Assembly (NCBI GenBank): GCA_903914955.1
Contig: CAIWRB010000069.1
Coordinates: forward strand, 1 to 58,304
Origin: an uncultured Chloroflexota bacterium
Lineage (GTDB): Bacteria; Chloroflexota; Anaerolineae; Anaerolineales; Villigracilaceae
Direction of reading: 5' to 3'
Length of the DNA: 58,304 nt
The position numbers were made by a program, and so were the translations under genes. The number at the start of each line of letters is the position of its first letter. Positions within the stretch are counted from its first letter, which is position 1. The notes below the pieces were generated by a model that saw only the letters and a list, made by a program, of their open reading frames with translations, was not told the origin of the DNA and made no database searches. Positions 4,190 to 49,941 of this stretch are shown piece after piece.

Positions 4190-4396
4190 TATAGAATCGC
4201 GCGTCCTCTGTAATGGAACCTGAGAGATTATCCCTTGTGGGGATTTACACCGTCGGTGTCTCGTTATCAATAGAGACTTTCCAGAGTCTTCTGCGGATGC
4301 AGGGTCCTTTTGCCTGAGAGATTCGTCTGGTTTCGCCTGTATCCAGATTTGCACCTTCGGCGCTCGTGTTTGAACTACGAGTCTCTTCCCTGTAAC
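4190..4396 (-). promoter_or_regulatory. Tandem glycine riboswitch
   Basis: Read on the minus strand, two consecutive glycine aptamers are visible. The first (about 4396-4300) contains GAAGAGACTCG, CGCCGAAGGTGCAAAT and TCTCAGGCAAAAGGACCCTG. The second (about 4295-4195) contains GACTCTGGAAAGTCTC, ACCGACGGTGTAAA and TCTCTCAGGTTCCATTACAG. These are the conserved core and the closing segment of the class. It precedes gcvH directly. In known cases glycine binding turns the operon on; no obvious terminator is visible between the second aptamer and gcvH, so control may be at translation. Confidence 0.93.
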
Positions 4397-4413
4397 CCGT
4401 TCAATTGTTTTTT

Positions 4414-6342: not shown

Positions 6343-6447
6343 ATCCGGACAGGCGACCGGCGGCACCCGGAGACACTTCCTTACCGTTGCTATCTTTCGA
6401 TCCTGGCGGGATTCGAAAGGCTACGCCGCGCCGGGCCTGCCCGGACG
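6343..6447 (-). ncRNA. ffs: Signal recognition particle RNA, small bacterial type
   Basis: On the minus strand the domain IV signature is clear: CCAGG, a 3-bp stem (ATC), the GAAA tetraloop, GAT, then AGCA. This is the Ffh-binding asymmetric loop arrangement. The outer ends CCGGGCAGGC and GCCTGTCCGG pair over 10 bp, and an inner CCGGCG/CGCCGG stem follows. The length of about 100 nt fits the 4.5S class. A consensus promoter sits immediately upstream. Exact ends are estimated from the base-paired termini. Confidence 0.88.
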
Positions 6448-45470: not shown

Positions 45471-45499
45471 TTGACGCATGTATATCACAGTGGTATCCT
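45471..45499 (+). promoter_or_regulatory. Promoter of the leader peptide-aminotransferase unit
   Basis: TTGACG and TATCCT are 17 nt apart. The -10 ends 8 nt before the ATG at 45508, so the transcript would begin at the leader peptide start codon. Confidence 0.8.
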
Positions 45500-45507
45500 T
45501 GCGCGCA

Positions 45508-45618
45508 ATGTTCAACCGAGTCATTGTTGATACCAATAATACCAATCGTACTACTCGCACTATTAACTTAGTGACGGGGCGTTGGTATTTATCAGGTGAG
45601 CACGCTCACACTGGATGA
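45508..45618 (+). CDS. 36-residue leader peptide (putative attenuator)
   Basis: ATG at 45508 to TGA at 45616. The peptide begins MFNRVIVDTNNTNRTTRT and contains 7 Thr, 5 Asn and 4 Arg in 36 residues, mostly in residues 9-23. Part of its coding sequence (45574-45586) is complementary to the terminator's left arm. Translation would therefore decide which hairpin forms. It looks leaderless. It was too short for standard gene calls. The regulated gene is an aminotransferase 61 nt downstream. Limitation for Asn, Thr or Arg charging is the likely signal. Confidence 0.65.
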   Translation: MFNRVIVDTNNTNRTTRTINLVTGRWYLSGEHAHTG

Positions 45619-45655
45619 GGAAACCAAACGCCCCGAGGTTCGGGGCGTTTTTCTT
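45574..45655 (+). terminator. Antiterminator/terminator attenuator
   Basis: Terminator: AACGCCCCG (45627-45635) pairs with CGGGGCGTT (45641-45649) around AGGTT and runs into T5. Antiterminator: CGGGGCGTTGGT (45575-45586) pairs with ACCAAACGCCCCG (45623-45635), with one bulged A. The two structures share the segment 45627-45635, so only one can form. A further GTGAG/CTCAC hairpin (45596-45609) surrounds the end of the peptide. The ribosome site AAAGGAG follows at 45664. Confidence 0.8.
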
Positions 45656-45678
45656 AATACATTAAAGGAGAAACCATC

Positions 45679-46983
45679 ATGTCTATTTCAAATACCACCC
45701 CCGTCTTTGCCGTTGACGAAAAAAATCTCGTCCCAGTCAGCGAGCACTTAAAGCAAATGGCGGATATTCCACCTTCACGCATGTTTCTCATCAATAAGTC
45801 TTTGAAGGTTTATGTGGAGAAGAACGCGGGCGCGAAAATATTTGATGCATCTCAGGGTGATGGCGGAGCATCATTGCCTGGCGTGCCAAAGGCGATTTTG
45901 GAACGCGCACTTCAACTTCAACTTGAGCATGGCACTGCCTACGATATGCCATTCGGCACTGATGCGTATCGCAAAGCGGTCATTGAGCAATATTGGAAAT
46001 TGGATTCATCTTCCGGCTGGGGACCTGCAAATGTGCTCGGCACCGCGGGCGGGCGCGACGCGCTGATCAAAGTTTATCAAGCCATGTTGACTTTGGGGCA
46101 TGGTCGCCAGGGTGATCTGATTATGGTTTCCCGCGTTCCGTGGATTTCATACAACTGGGGCCCGTATGGAGTCGGTGCGAATGTGCTTTGGGCGCCCGGT
46201 GACCCTGCTCAAGGTTGGGCATATTCCGAAGATGCGATCCGCGAGAGCGTGAAGTTCGCGGAATCAAAAGGAAGAAAGATTGCGGGTATTATCATCACCA
46301 ATCCTGATAACCCAACTGGTTTGACAATTGCAGTAGAGAAGCAAGTCTCACTCGCTAAAGCTGCGTTGGAAGCGGGTGTGGCCTTTGTATTGTTCGACTG
46401 GATGTATCACTACGTCACCGACGAATCCCCAATGGATTTGAATTCCTTCCTGAAATTCTTCACACCCGAAGAACGCAAGCGCTTAATGTTCCTTGACGGG
46501 TTGACCAAATCGCTTGGAGCGTCGAACATCCGCAACTGTCATTTGATCGCGGATGAGAATGTTATCAAGTTCATTGTGGCGCGCGCTTCGCATGGAGTCA
46601 TTCCGCCGTTTTTTTCTTTGGCTGTGGCGATGGCTGCCTATGAAATGGGATATTCTGAAGCTGCAAAAACGATCATCGAGCCAACCAACGCCAGCCGAGT
46701 GGTCTTGAAGAAGCTGTTGGCTGAAAGTGGAATGCAGCACATCATCGGCAAAGGCTATTACGCCTTTATGAATGTCGGTGAATTTGTCAAAGCGGGGGGC
46801 TTGGCAGATAGTGAACCGCTCGGACAATATCTCGCCGAAAATCATGGCATTGCGATCGTCCCTGGCGCATTCTTCTCTCCCTTCGGCAATGACTGGATCC
46901 GCTTCTCGTATGCCACCCCCGCCGAAAGAACTGAAGGCGCATTCAAGAGGTTGGTAGAAGGACTGAATTCCCTTAAAGGTTAA
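45679..46983 (+). CDS. Class I/II PLP aminotransferase
   Basis: A 434-residue fold-type I enzyme. The PLP lysine is in DGLTKSLGASN, with the family motif GIIITNPDNPTG and DWMYHYVTDES between. RFSYATPAE provides the substrate-carboxylate region. It is close to aspartate/alanine aminotransferase-like proteins, but the substrate cannot be fixed. The leader peptide is rich in Thr and Asn codons. A role in aspartate-family metabolism would suit that, which is a hint and not proof. It is followed by an inverted repeat. Confidence 0.85.
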   Translation: MSISNTTPVFAVDEKNLVPVSEHLKQMADIPPSRMFLINKSLKVYVEKNAGAKIFDASQGDGGASLPGVPKAILERALQLQLEHGTAYDMPFGTDAYRKAVIEQYWKLDSSSGWGPANVLGTAGGRDALIKVYQAMLTLGHGRQGDLIMVSRVPWISYNWGPYGVGANVLWAPGDPAQGWAYSEDAIRESVKFAESKGRKIAGIIITNPDNPTGLTIAVEKQVSLAKAALEAGVAFVLFDWMYHYVTDESPMDLNSFLKFFTPEERKRLMFLDGLTKSLGASNIRNCHLIADENVIKFIVARASHGVIPPFFSLAVAMAAYEMGYSEAAKTIIEPTNASRVVLKKLLAESGMQHIIGKGYYAFMNVGEFVKAGGLADSEPLGQYLAENHGIAIVPGAFFSPFGNDWIRFSYATPAERTEGAFKRLVEGLNSLKG

Positions 46984-47103: not shown

Positions 47104-49941
47104 ATGCCCTCACAAAAATTCGCTGATAAATATCACCTCGCAGTAGAACAGGCCGCCAAGGAAAAACCTCAAGGTGGACTCAATGGTTTCGAACAGGAAT
47201 GGAATCTACTGGATGAAGAACTGCGCCCGCTGCTCACTGTAGGCGCAGGTCCCAGTCAACAATCGTTTGTAGATTATCTGCGCGCCGAGTGCATTCCGCC
47301 GTGGCTCGCGCAGTTCAGTCAATTGGAAGTATTTCACTGGATGGTTGAGTGGGCCACGCGCCCATATTACATCCCGCGCGGCGCGATCTATGAAGCCCGT
47401 CTGATGGAAGCTTCACTCATCAACTCGCTTCACCGCGCGGGTGTCAACTTCGGCGAGCGTTTGCATTACTGGCATGGCAACCTTTTATTCCTGACCGACA
47501 TCAGCCATGACTCCATTCCAGGAAACTGGTCAATTGCAAAAAGACGTTATCTCGAAAAATGCGTTGATCTATATGGTGATACCCTCGCCACTGCGGGAAT
47601 TCACACAAACCTTTCATTGCCTGACCCGCTCTTTGCATGGGACTTTATGCACCTTTCTGCAAGCGAACGCGGTGATAAACATCTTGATGATTTCAAGTCT
47701 GAGTTTTATATTACAGCCACACGTCTCTTGCGCGCGTTTGCCAGCCTCTTTATTGCCACCGCTGCGTCCACGCCGATGCAGGCTCAAGTTAAGGATGGAC
47801 GCGCTGCCGTGATCCTTACCGAGCACGATTCGATTCGCAACCTTACCTTCCCGAATCCGCGCGAGATCGATCTCCCCGACCTCTATCATTCCTACAATGA
47901 TTATCTGCAAAACTCCTATGATCTCGTGCGGCGCGGAGTGCGCTTTGGAAACAACAACTGGACTCCTGTCCGCGCCCGTTCTTTTGCGGATCCTGTTGAG
48001 CGGATCATTTCAACCACCAGCGACGAACTGACGCATCTTTACACCCGCGGCTTGTTCGCTGTGGGACAGGCGACTCCTGCCGAGGAGATGGCGCTGCAAA
48101 TCGAAAAGCAGAATCTCATGGCGCGCATCAATCTGCCGATGGGGCGCGTCGAGGTCCGCGTGGACGATGGCGGCCATAGTCTCGATATAGACATTGCGAA
48201 TCTGACTCTCAAAAACCTCCTTCTTCTTCGCATCTATTCTGACCCGCAGTTCGCGCGTGCTTTCAGATATGACCGCGAGGATATTTCCCGCGCTCGCGTT
48301 AATGAAAACCTTGCCGCCAAGTTTAGTTTGCGAGCTGAGATCGCGAATCCATTTACATCCAAGCCGATAAGCATGCGTGACTTCCTCAAATGGACTCTCA
48401 GCGAAGTTAAACCATTAGCGGAAGCATTGGATTTATGGAATGATTTGACCCCGCTAGTTGAAATGTCTGAAGGCGGGCGCAACACTGCTGAAAAATTCCG
48501 TGCGCGATTGCAAGGCGAGTTGGCAGACGGTAATGAAGTCCCGTTGGAAGTTTTAAAGGAATTACATTTTGAGCGCGAAGCGCAAGTCAAAAGTGACGTG
48601 GAAAGAATTGCTTCTGAATATGGCGGGCTTGGTGAAGAATCCTCCAAGATCGCTGAATTCCTGCAACGCGGGCGTGATGCGGCAAGGCAAATACAAAACG
48701 CACCCATTCAATTCAGGTCGAGATCCCAGGCCGTAGTTGAAGTATCGTATCCTGACAAGACCTCTGAAATTTTGGATCTTGCACAGCAGTTGATCCGTAT
48801 CCCCGGAGTAACAGCCTGCCCCGATGAACGTTTGGATGAAGTCCATCGCACTGGTTCGCTGGTTGATGATTATTTGCGTAATGCTGGTCTGAATGTGAAA
48901 TACTTCGATGGAAAATATCCCGCAGTATATGCAACCTTCCCAAAAATAGGCGACCAGGAATCAGGGAAAAAGCCTGATTCCCCAATCACAAATAACTCAG
49001 CCTCTATCCTTTTGACGGGTCATTTCGATGTTGTCGAACCTGAACCTGACGACTCGCAATTCATTCCGCGCATTGAAGGGGATTACCTGTGGGGACGCGG
49101 CGCAGCGGATATGAAGACGGTTGTTGCGACATACATGGTGTGGATGAAAGACACCATGAAGTCTGGCACGCCATATCCGAACATCGCGTTGATGTTGGTT
49201 GGAAATGAAGAGAATGGAGAATCTGAAGCTTGGGGCACTCCGCATCTTTTGAAAGAATTAGATCTGACGCCTTCTTTATTTATCGCAGGTGAGCGTACTG
49301 GAGAAAAAGGTAATGAACTCTTTGGAGAGATCTGTGTCGAGAATCGCGGCGTGATGCGTTTCGATGTGATCGCGCGCGGTGCGAAAGGTCATTCAGGCGT
49401 GGCAGGGACAGGCGATTTGAGCGAGAAACTTATCAATGCTCGCATGGCTTTGAATGAGATCTTTGCAAAACATCTCACGCTCAAAGCGGCGGATGGTTGG
49501 CAGTCCCAAGCGAAATTCCCATTCATCAATGTTGGAACAGTGGGTGTGTATAATGTCACAGCAGCGGAAGGAATTCTTGGAGTAGAAATTCGTCCCATTC
49601 CGCAGGATGATACATCCGCATTACGAAGTGAAGTGGATGCTTATTGTGTAGAAAATGGATTGGAAGCGAAGTTCACCGTAATGGAAAATGGTGTGGCCTG
49701 CGACAGGAATAATCCAGCGTTGCTCGCGCTCATTGAAGCAGTCAAACAGGCGTCAGGTGGGCAGGAAGCGCGTATTGGCAGAAAGCTGCCAGGTACCAGC
49801 GCAAGATTTGCTCCGGGCGGGCAGGCTGTCGTTTGGGGGCAATCTGGCGTTGGTCCACATGCGAAGAACGAGGCGCATTACATTCCCAGCATTGAGCCGT
49901 ATTACAGATCGCTGAATGAGTTGGCGAAGTTGTGGAAGTAA
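47104..49941 (+). CDS. Glutamate-cysteine-ligase-like domain fused to an M20 metallopeptidase
   Basis: A 945-residue fusion. Residues 1-540 resemble GCS2-type carboxylate-amine ligases: GGLNGFEQEWNLLD at the N-terminus, ARLMEASLINSLHRAG, TAGIHTNLSLP and the RVEVRVDDGGHSLDIDI strand. Residues 550-945 are an M20 peptidase: LLTGHFDVVEPEPDDSQF (first metal ligands), WGRGAADMKTV, GNEENGESEAWGT, and the GVGPHAKNEAHYI end. An insertion at about residues 616-632 comes from a palindrome. A product of the ligase could be the substrate of the peptidase. It stops within a terminator shared with the next gene. Confidence 0.85.
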   Translation: MPSQKFADKYHLAVEQAAKEKPQGGLNGFEQEWNLLDEELRPLLTVGAGPSQQSFVDYLRAECIPPWLAQFSQLEVFHWMVEWATRPYYIPRGAIYEARLMEASLINSLHRAGVNFGERLHYWHGNLLFLTDISHDSIPGNWSIAKRRYLEKCVDLYGDTLATAGIHTNLSLPDPLFAWDFMHLSASERGDKHLDDFKSEFYITATRLLRAFASLFIATAASTPMQAQVKDGRAAVILTEHDSIRNLTFPNPREIDLPDLYHSYNDYLQNSYDLVRRGVRFGNNNWTPVRARSFADPVERIISTTSDELTHLYTRGLFAVGQATPAEEMALQIEKQNLMARINLPMGRVEVRVDDGGHSLDIDIANLTLKNLLLLRIYSDPQFARAFRYDREDISRARVNENLAAKFSLRAEIANPFTSKPISMRDFLKWTLSEVKPLAEALDLWNDLTPLVEMSEGGRNTAEKFRARLQGELADGNEVPLEVLKELHFEREAQVKSDVERIASEYGGLGEESSKIAEFLQRGRDAARQIQNAPIQFRSRSQAVVEVSYPDKTSEILDLAQQLIRIPGVTACPDERLDEVHRTGSLVDDYLRNAGLNVKYFDGKYPAVYATFPKIGDQESGKKPDSPITNNSASILLTGHFDVVEPEPDDSQFIPRIEGDYLWGRGAADMKTVVATYMVWMKDTMKSGTPYPNIALMLVGNEENGESEAWGTPHLLKELDLTPSLFIAGERTGEKGNELFGEICVENRGVMRFDVIARGAKGHSGVAGTGDLSEKLINARMALNEIFAKHLTLKAADGWQSQAKFPFINVGTVGVYNVTAAEGILGVEIRPIPQDDTSALRSEVDAYCVENGLEAKFTVMENGVACDRNNPALLALIEAVKQASGGQEARIGRKLPGTSARFAPGGQAVVWGQSGVGPHAKNEAHYIPSIEPYYRSLNELAKLWK
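48957..48981. repeat. Palindrome inside the M20 domain coding region
   Basis: GGAATCAGG and CCTGATTCC pair over 9 bp around GAAAAAG. It is read in frame as QESGKKPDSP between ATFPK and SASILLTGHFD. That region is normally a short strand connection in M20 enzymes. Confidence 0.7.

Follow-up and report, generated by a model that had tools for sequence, protein, structure and literature searches.

Can a short reading frame that begins at, or within a few nucleotides of, the 5' end of its own RNA act as the sensor of a transcription attenuator? The question is raised by the stretch ahead of an aminotransferase gene on contig C69 of the 4.4-Mb draft genome of an uncultured Chloroflexota bacterium of the order Anaerolineales (the window genome, G000); the 58,304 nucleotides of this contig are the window analyzed here. 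An earlier interpretation made from the letters alone (hereafter the sequence-only reading) had proposed a leaderless leader peptide with an overlapping antiterminator and terminator at this place.

Layout and folding of the leader

All features of the element lie on the forward strand. The promoter (45471-45499) comprises a -35 hexamer TTGACG (45471-45476), a 17-nt spacer with TGG ahead of the -10, and a -10 hexamer TATCCT (45494-45499). It scores 9/12 in a simple scan, and a shuffled region yields 0.9 such sites per shuffle; because the hexamers alone would not stand out against shuffles, the promoter call rests on the conservation described below. From the position of the -10, transcription is predicted to start at 45505-45508, i.e. 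0-3 nt ahead of the ATG (45508) of a leader peptide of 36 aa, MFNRVIVDTNNTNRTTRTINLVTGRWYLSGEHAHTG, encoded at 45508-45618 and closed by TGA at 45616-45618. The -10 ends 8 nt upstream of the ATG, leaving no room for a Shine-Dalgarno site, and the 36-codon frame that the sequence-only reading had placed 8 nt after a -10 box is thus confirmed to the base. So is its richness in Thr, Asn and Arg (7, 5 and 4 codons, respectively, among the 36), and the predicted control codons lie at positions 9-20 (TNNTNRTTRTIN; 45532-45567), where Thr and Asn cluster across relatives.

Downstream of the frame lies an intrinsic terminator with a T run (45626-45655; stem 45626-45650 in a scan, supported by the folds), a GC-rich hairpin, the stem of which ends 28 nt upstream of the aminotransferase start at 45679. 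Since this terminator lies ahead of both the start codon and the gene's own Shine-Dalgarno-like AAAGGAG (45664-45670, by eye), the plan that had been called translational attenuation is better read as transcription attenuation.

When the transcript is folded to 45637, 45575-45583 pairs with 45627-45635 and 45584-45586 with 45623-45625, with A45626 bulged, exactly the pairing of 45575-45586 with 45623-45635 proposed earlier. The 5' strand of this antiterminator, arm 2 (45575-45586), lies within the leader frame and codes for TGRW; its 3' strand, arm 3 (45623-45635), also provides the left arm of the terminator. This overlap had been foreseen, and the stem, given as 9 bp, is 10-11 bp. Folded through the T run, the leader forms the terminator and a 5' hairpin (arm 1:arm 2, ACCAA...TTGGT, 45539-45588), the counterpart of an anti-antiterminator. 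The minimum free energy (MFE) of the full leader transcript has a z-score of -4.64, and none of 200 shuffles folds as well. Both the folds and the alignment described below show antiterminator and terminator to share one arm and hence to be mutually exclusive, with limited support from covariation.

The sequence-only reading had suggested masking the 5' part. With the 5' part blocked in the manner of a ribosome stalled at codon 9, 12, 14 or 18, the nascent RNA has the antiterminator as its MFE structure for every block, as it likewise does without any ribosome. In the finished RNA, the probability of the terminator for these blocks is 1.0, 0.88, 0.56 and 0.38, respectively, so that it is favored for codons 9, 12 and 14 and disfavored only at 18. 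As final stability favors the terminator for most blocks, the outcome must depend on the order of folding; in known attenuators, too, it is folding order, not final stability, that decides.

Conservation upstream of orthologous aminotransferases

We collected 121 loci, from the window genome, 60 relatives and 80 of the 293 encoding places in a named genome collection. Three matches did not extend to the gene start and were skipped, and a further, short one could not be recovered; the remaining 117 loci reduce to 92 distinct regions, 91 of which have at least 240 nt and constitute the tested set, all from Anaerolineales and with protein identities of 61-100%. In the loose test, a -10-like hexamer had to be followed 5-11 nt on by ATG or GTG opening a frame of 10-50 codons, with a terminator shortly before the gene; the strict test additionally required a good -35. 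A leaderless frame with a terminator was recovered in 77/91 regions by the loose and 70/91 by the strict test, as against 1/36 and 0/36 for other genes of the window and 9/182 and 0/182 for dinucleotide shuffles. Two of the 77 (L092 and L098) are by our judgement unconvincing and were left out of the codon-content and duplex tests, which leaves 75 leaders before thinning. That the short frame between promoter and terminator is translated is suggested by its reading frame and the synonymous signal reported below.

The geometry of the promoter is nearly invariant: in the 27 of 29 regions that could be parsed, the spacer is always 17 nt, and the -10 and the ATG are separated by 8 nt in all but one, where the gap is 7 nt. 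The remaining two regions (L009 and L011) have a spacer of 17 and a gap of 8 in the wider test, among the matches of which the gap is mostly 7-10 nt. Among the 14 regions failing the automatic test, inspection by eye found no leader in eight (L099, L103, L108, L110, L113, L117, L121 and L035), a leader with a longer gap in L093 and L095, and a leaderless MSNRTRTTTFRPN with an imperfect terminator in L120. Natural variants were also seen by eye: L075 has lost the leader, its retained promoter running straight into the terminator; L102 has kept the promoter and lost both leader and terminator; and in L105 the aminotransferase itself is apparently transcribed leaderless.

Codon content and reading frame

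Relative to the window background, 56 leaders thinned from the 75 are enriched in Thr (3.1-fold), Asn (2.8-fold), Arg (1.7-fold), Trp (2.8-fold) and Cys (2.7-fold). Of these signals, those of Thr and Asn are the strongest, and Lys falls outside the top seven; the enrichment in Trp arises because Trp falls in arm 2. Cys is enriched in all three leader sets for which codons were counted (aminotransferase 2.7-fold, aspartate kinase 3.8-fold and AspRS 4.6-fold; 30, 13 and 13 residues, respectively). In the 56 leaders, Thr and Asn together make up 27.0% of residues in frame, compared with 9.3% and 6.5% in the two alternative frames. Among the 58 of 60 aligned leaders that could be scored, their excess falls 4-13 codons ahead of arm 2, and from -15 upwards there is none, with Arg at positions -5 and -8 relative to arm 2.

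Arm 2 keeps the frame of the ORF in 54 of the 56 leaders in which it could be located (the exceptions being L052 and L090), and, across the 26 nearest pairs, 52 of 134 single-base codon differences are synonymous where 26.7% would be expected; the signal is moderate (p = 0.0023). At protein identities of 61-72% the peptides are dissimilar yet Thr/Asn-rich, as in L111, L112, L032 and L038. The outcome that the sequence-only reading had named as speaking against it, a lack of peptide conservation among relatives, therefore did not occur, in the sense that Thr/Asn-richness in frame persists though the sequence diverges. Individual leaders vary: L036 and L104 have few or no Thr, and in L112 and L061 Thr far exceeds Asn. 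The ACC-AAT (Thr-Asn) codons partly serve the pairing of arm 1 with ATTGGT.

Pairing and covariation of the arms

In an alignment of 60 leaders, 99.6% of cells are paired in the terminator and 91.1% in the antiterminator, compared with 31-62% and 29-51%, respectively, when the arms are slid against each other. The covariation scores lie above all 500 shuffles, but the counts of double-change pairs and of pair types are unremarkable: 104 and 107 of the 500 shuffles reach those of the antiterminator, and 84 and 490 reach those of the terminator. The position common to arms 2, 3 and 4 reads G-C-G in 40 of the 60 sequences, A-U-A in nine and mixed in 11, and nine of these mixed forms mismatch at the key antiterminator pair. 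One terminator pair changes from C-G to U-A in 14/60 sequences and is matched in 60/60. On the protein tree, arms 3 and 4 changed four times, always in a matched manner; arm 2 changed six times and follows in most cases, not all. With so few independent events, a sign test restricted to independent pairs is too small to yield a significant result. Hence, of the compensatory pairing that the sequence-only reading had expected among relatives, the conservation of the alternative pairings stands, and the compensatory support for the antiterminator in these sequences is thin. Set against 200 shuffles, the 2:3 duplex ranks in the best 5% for 65/78 leaders overall and for 16/22 of those below 80% protein identity, the six distant leaders that fail being L031, L034, L036, L091, L116 and L120.

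Sister elements before other amino-acid genes

A covariance model of the aminotransferase leaders, searched in 61 genomes, gave further full-length matches. Of 20 such secondary matches that were read, 14 lie before aspartate kinase genes and are Met/Thr-rich, five lie before aspartyl-tRNA synthetase (AspRS) genes and are Asn/Asp-rich, and one (L134) was judged false. We accordingly surveyed these two families and, after the scan described below, hisG, in each case by a leader test that did not require a terminator. Upstream of AspRS, an Asn/Asp-rich leader frame is present in 24/30 loci chosen by protein rank (L151-L180) and in 33/39 distinct regions when loci picked for other reasons are included; leaders of this kind were also noted at L227-L230. 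In 17 thinned AspRS leaders, Asn is enriched 6.6-fold and Asp 1.9-fold, and the two together account for 35.7% of residues in frame as against 1.6% and 2.0%. Upstream of aspartate kinase, 32/41 distinct regions gave a candidate; four (L212, L221, L225 and L226) were rejected before codons were counted, leaving 28/41 with a Thr/Met-rich leader. In 20 thinned kinase leaders, Thr is enriched 3.9-fold and Met 2.6-fold. Four further kinase regions (L213, L219, L220 and L224) gave no usable start and were left out, and L191 has only 67 nt.

By eye, the kinase regions L197, L200 and L202 are leaderless or nearly so, and a longer 5' UTR precedes the leader frame in the AspRS regions L163, L170 and L171 and the kinase regions L221, L223 and L225. 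That some sister leaders have a longer 5' UTR indicates a common attenuator, leaderless in one of its variants. The window genome has the AspRS leader (L211, contig C332). Its aspartate kinase (L206/L233, contig C363) lacks the Thr/Met leader that most relatives have, and by eye a transposase-like remnant stands in its place directly upstream; downstream of the same kinase gene lies a SAM riboswitch (Rfam RF00162, 81.6 bits; L206:109-233, minus strand).

An unaimed scan of 400 kb of the relative G025 returned only two candidates, neither with an exact 8-base match between the ORF and the terminator arm. One is a His-rich leaderless leader before hisG; the other (L247) has no gene of at least 120 aa behind it. 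Of 25 hisG loci then looked at (L295-L319), 24 could be placed, and in 22 of these 24 a leaderless ORF containing three or more His codons is present. They span many families of the order and include the window genome (L317, contig C296); terminators are seen in all five sequences displayed, and the gap from the -10 to the ATG is mostly 10 nt. With His codons ahead of hisG the mechanism is hardly in doubt, and these leaders serve as a positive control for leaderless attenuation in this lineage. In all three sister elements the control codons clearly fit the downstream gene, and two-state folding of the same type is obtained for the AspRS and hisG leaders of the window genome and for the G007 kinase leader.

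No leader of this type was found upstream of leuA (20 loci) or, by eye, of ilvB in the window genome. The trpE gene of the window genome (L123) has, by eye, a T-box-like leader rather than a leader peptide, and T-box-like leaders precede thrS in 16/20 loci (L255-L274) by a regular expression.

In 284 mechanically called genes in the 400 kb of G025, the distance from -10-like hexamers to the first ATG has its peak at 6-8 nt (23 counted), with 27 hexamers at 6-11 nt as against 7.3 expected; an SD-like site is present in 129/284. Leaderless transcripts are thus probably common in this lineage, in line with the prediction of Zheng et al. of a mean leaderless share of 4.7% in the four of 12 Chloroflexi with any detected, as that survey reports it (PMC3160421). 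On these sequence signals, leaderless attenuation seems to be routine in Anaerolineales.

The aminotransferase and its downstream neighbor

The regulated gene (45679-46983) encodes a class I/II aminotransferase (Pfam PF00155) of 434 aa that resembles aspartate aminotransferases. None of the 25 NCBIfam models listed for it reaches its cut-off; GntC and DapC are among those with matches far below it. Its best PDB sequence match is the aspartate aminotransferase 1j32, and a structural model (pLDDT 77) retrieves as top folds prephenate and aspartate aminotransferases that share 18-24% identity with it. The nearest named relatives, the best of them 98% identical, come from metagenome-assembled genomes of Chloroflexi/Anaerolineales.

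The next gene (47104-49941, plus strand), possibly in the same transcription unit, combines, by its domain matches, an N-terminal part weakly similar to glutamate-cysteine ligases with a C-terminal M20 peptidase, the latter matching DapE/ArgE models far below cut-off. In 93/100 loci, duplicates included, its N-terminal part recurs on the strand of the aminotransferase no more than 4.5 kb downstream, and the fusion could hint at a gamma-glutamyl-protected step. Elsewhere in the window, the minus strand carries a glycine riboswitch (4292-4400) and a small SRP RNA (6344-6442).

A probable ribosome-mediated attenuator and its alternatives

Its anatomy, conservation, reading frame, control-codon enrichment, mutually exclusive arms and sister elements, all read directly from sequence, make it very probable that the element attenuates transcription by means of a ribosome reading a leaderless leader ORF. 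We infer the following course of events. RNA polymerase would start at, or at most about 3 nt from, the ATG, and the ribosome would load on the 5' end itself. By default, arm 1 would pair with arm 2 and the terminator (arms 3:4) could form, stopping transcription before the aminotransferase. Were charged tRNA-Thr and/or tRNA-Asn, perhaps also tRNA-Arg, to run short, the ribosome would stall in codons 9-20 and open the 1:2 hairpin, upon which arm 2 would take arm 3 and polymerase would read through into the aminotransferase. With all tRNAs charged, the ribosome would cross arm 2, which lies inside the ORF, and stop just before arm 3, so that the terminator would win; the stop codon is only 7 nt ahead of the terminator stem, and a ribosome positioned on it would cover part of arm 3.

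Could the conserved structure act by itself, as a ligand riboswitch or a T-box-like tRNA sensor in which the ORF is incidental? The strong two-state fold would fit such a switch, arm 2 itself explains some of the coding conservation (GRW), and T-box-like leaders do exist in the order, as before thrS. Against this, neither T-boxes nor the known ligand riboswitches of Rfam 15 give a covariance-model match at the leader at gathering thresholds, nor does any model at E <= 1 in L001 and L032; further, the Thr/Asn excess is confined to frame 0, arm 2 stays in frame in nearly all leaders, synonymous differences are in excess, distant leaders retain Thr/Asn runs in otherwise dissimilar peptides, and the codon content of the sister elements varies with the gene. 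We therefore consider an untranslated switch extremely improbable. It is also improbable that the attenuator is real and its leader not leaderless, with a main start lying farther upstream and translation beginning at the in-frame ATG at 45478 or by another signal. Initiation at 45478 would lengthen the frame to 46 codons, some sister leaders in the order do have longer 5' UTRs, and the start site assigned here is itself a prediction. However, this ATG falls in the promoter spacer and is by eye missing from many relatives, whereas the -35, the 17-nt spacer and the 7-8-nt gap are constant in the 27 of 29 regions that could be parsed; the peak of -10-like hexamers before the ATGs of G025 genes and the similarly short gap of the hisG leaders also argue for a leaderless start.

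A different kind of doubt concerns what the attenuator senses: the residue might be Arg, or just one of Asn and Thr, with the enzyme serving another pathway, such as that to diaminopimelate and lysine. The enrichment of Arg and its placement at -5 and -8, the leaders with few or no Thr (L036, L104) or with Thr far above Asn (L112, L061), and the sub-cut-off matches of the enzyme (GntC, DapC) and its M20 neighbor (DapE/ArgE) all lend this some substance. We nevertheless regard it as unlikely, as no residue gives a stronger signal than Thr and Asn in the 56 thinned leaders, Lys is outside the top seven, and aspartate aminotransferases predominate among the best matches by sequence and fold, though at only about 20% identity. 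Very improbable, finally, is a role for the short terminated transcript or the peptide in trans, with attenuation merely as its source. Such a role has a precedent in rnTrpL/peTrpL, the trans-acting RNA and peptide from the leaderless trpL attenuator of Sinorhizobium meliloti (PMC7298713); but the features conserved in the present leaders are those that attenuation needs, and a C-terminal LSGEQ-like motif of the peptide is limited to closer relatives.

A possible aspartate-family regulon

Thr and Asn are both made from aspartate. With aspartate products as the control residues and an enzyme resembling aspartate aminotransferases, we favor control by aspartate supply, with less confidence than attenuation itself: the likely job of the element would be to raise the supply of aspartate when its products run short. 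On its codons and sister elements, it probably belongs to an aspartate-family regulon. In keeping with such a grouping, in G041 the aspartate kinase follows the aminotransferase at a distance of 1.6 kb, in the same orientation on one contig, and G020 has an aspartate kinase (472 aa) followed by an asd-like gene (named by eye). A fuller version can be sketched, to which we give slightly less than an even chance. In it, Anaerolineales would run their aspartate-family regulon through leaderless attenuators before the aspartate aminotransferase-like gene (Thr/Asn), aspartate kinase with the asd-like gene (Thr/Met) and AspRS (Asn/Asp); Asn codons would serve as a read-out of aspartate; the AspRS leader would sense both Asp-tRNA(Asp) and Asn-tRNA(Asn); and loading on the 5' end would replace the polymerase pause. 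If this is so, the AspRS leader would also sense the tRNA-dependent route to asparagine: in G025, gatA, gatB and asnS lie within 8 kb downstream of AspRS, the presence of the AsnRS gene meaning that Asn-tRNA can also be made directly. Moreover, ribosomes loading on a bare 5' end would then stand in for the pausing of RNA polymerase that synchronizes classical attenuators.

By comparative genomics, these leaders indicate that leaderless leader peptides serve an order of Chloroflexota in the sensing of several amino acids. They also offer a large natural series, leaderless and leadered on the same genes, in which to ask how a ribosome loading at the 5' end keeps step with RNA polymerase, and they supply a regulatory clue to the role of an aminotransferase family without an assigned function.

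Relationship to known attenuators

The thr attenuator of Escherichia coli has a Thr-rich leader peptide with a Shine-Dalgarno site, follows the 1-2-3-4 logic, precedes aspartate-family genes and senses Thr and Ile. The element described here shares with it the Thr-rich peptide, the classical logic and, probably, the aspartate-family context; it differs in its Thr/Asn codons, and it departs from the classical scheme in having no room for a Shine-Dalgarno site and in placing arm 2 inside the ORF. In Seliverstov et al. (2005), who cataloged the actinobacterial attenuators of trp, cys, ilv, leu, trpS and leuS, complementary triples common to antiterminator and terminator are found as they are here; none of these six, unlike our set, is of the aspartate family (PMC1262725).

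Closer in form is the trpL RNA of S. meliloti, which begins at the ATG of the leader ORF and likewise works by attenuation; it is a Trp attenuator with a 14-aa peptide for which trans-acting roles are known (PMC7298713). In Streptomyces lividans, leaderless leader peptides are reported before seven genes or operons (leuS, leuA, trpE, trpS, ilvB, metN and thrS), which share with the present leaders an ORF without a 5' UTR, codons matched to the gene and, in several cases, a terminator (PMC8079986). They belong to another phylum, the seven named there include no aminotransferase, AspRS or aspartate kinase, and several are described without a clear terminator, whereas in Anaerolineales terminator and antiterminator are both conserved (PMC8079986). 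The remark in the sequence-only reading that such attenuators are not a standard textbook form is thus fair, and the form is not new, leaderless leader peptides having been reported in S. lividans and for S. meliloti trpL.

Related pieces have been noted in other lineages, as far as the accounts used here go: leaderless initiation is discussed for ilvBNC of Corynebacterium glutamicum (PMC11857589), an RNA leader with no peptide named is predicted for aspS in Shewanella (PMC2659441), and His-leader attenuators are described in some Firmicutes (PMC9413887). In searches of the open-access literature we found, among the papers listed, no description of such leaderless attenuators or of an aspartate-family regulon for Chloroflexota, nor of control peptides rich in Asn/Asp before AspRS or in Thr/Asn before an aminotransferase. 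Leaderless attenuation as a kind was already known, and what the Anaerolineales add to it is a set of sister elements of the same design, mostly leaderless, before hisG, AspRS and aspartate kinase.
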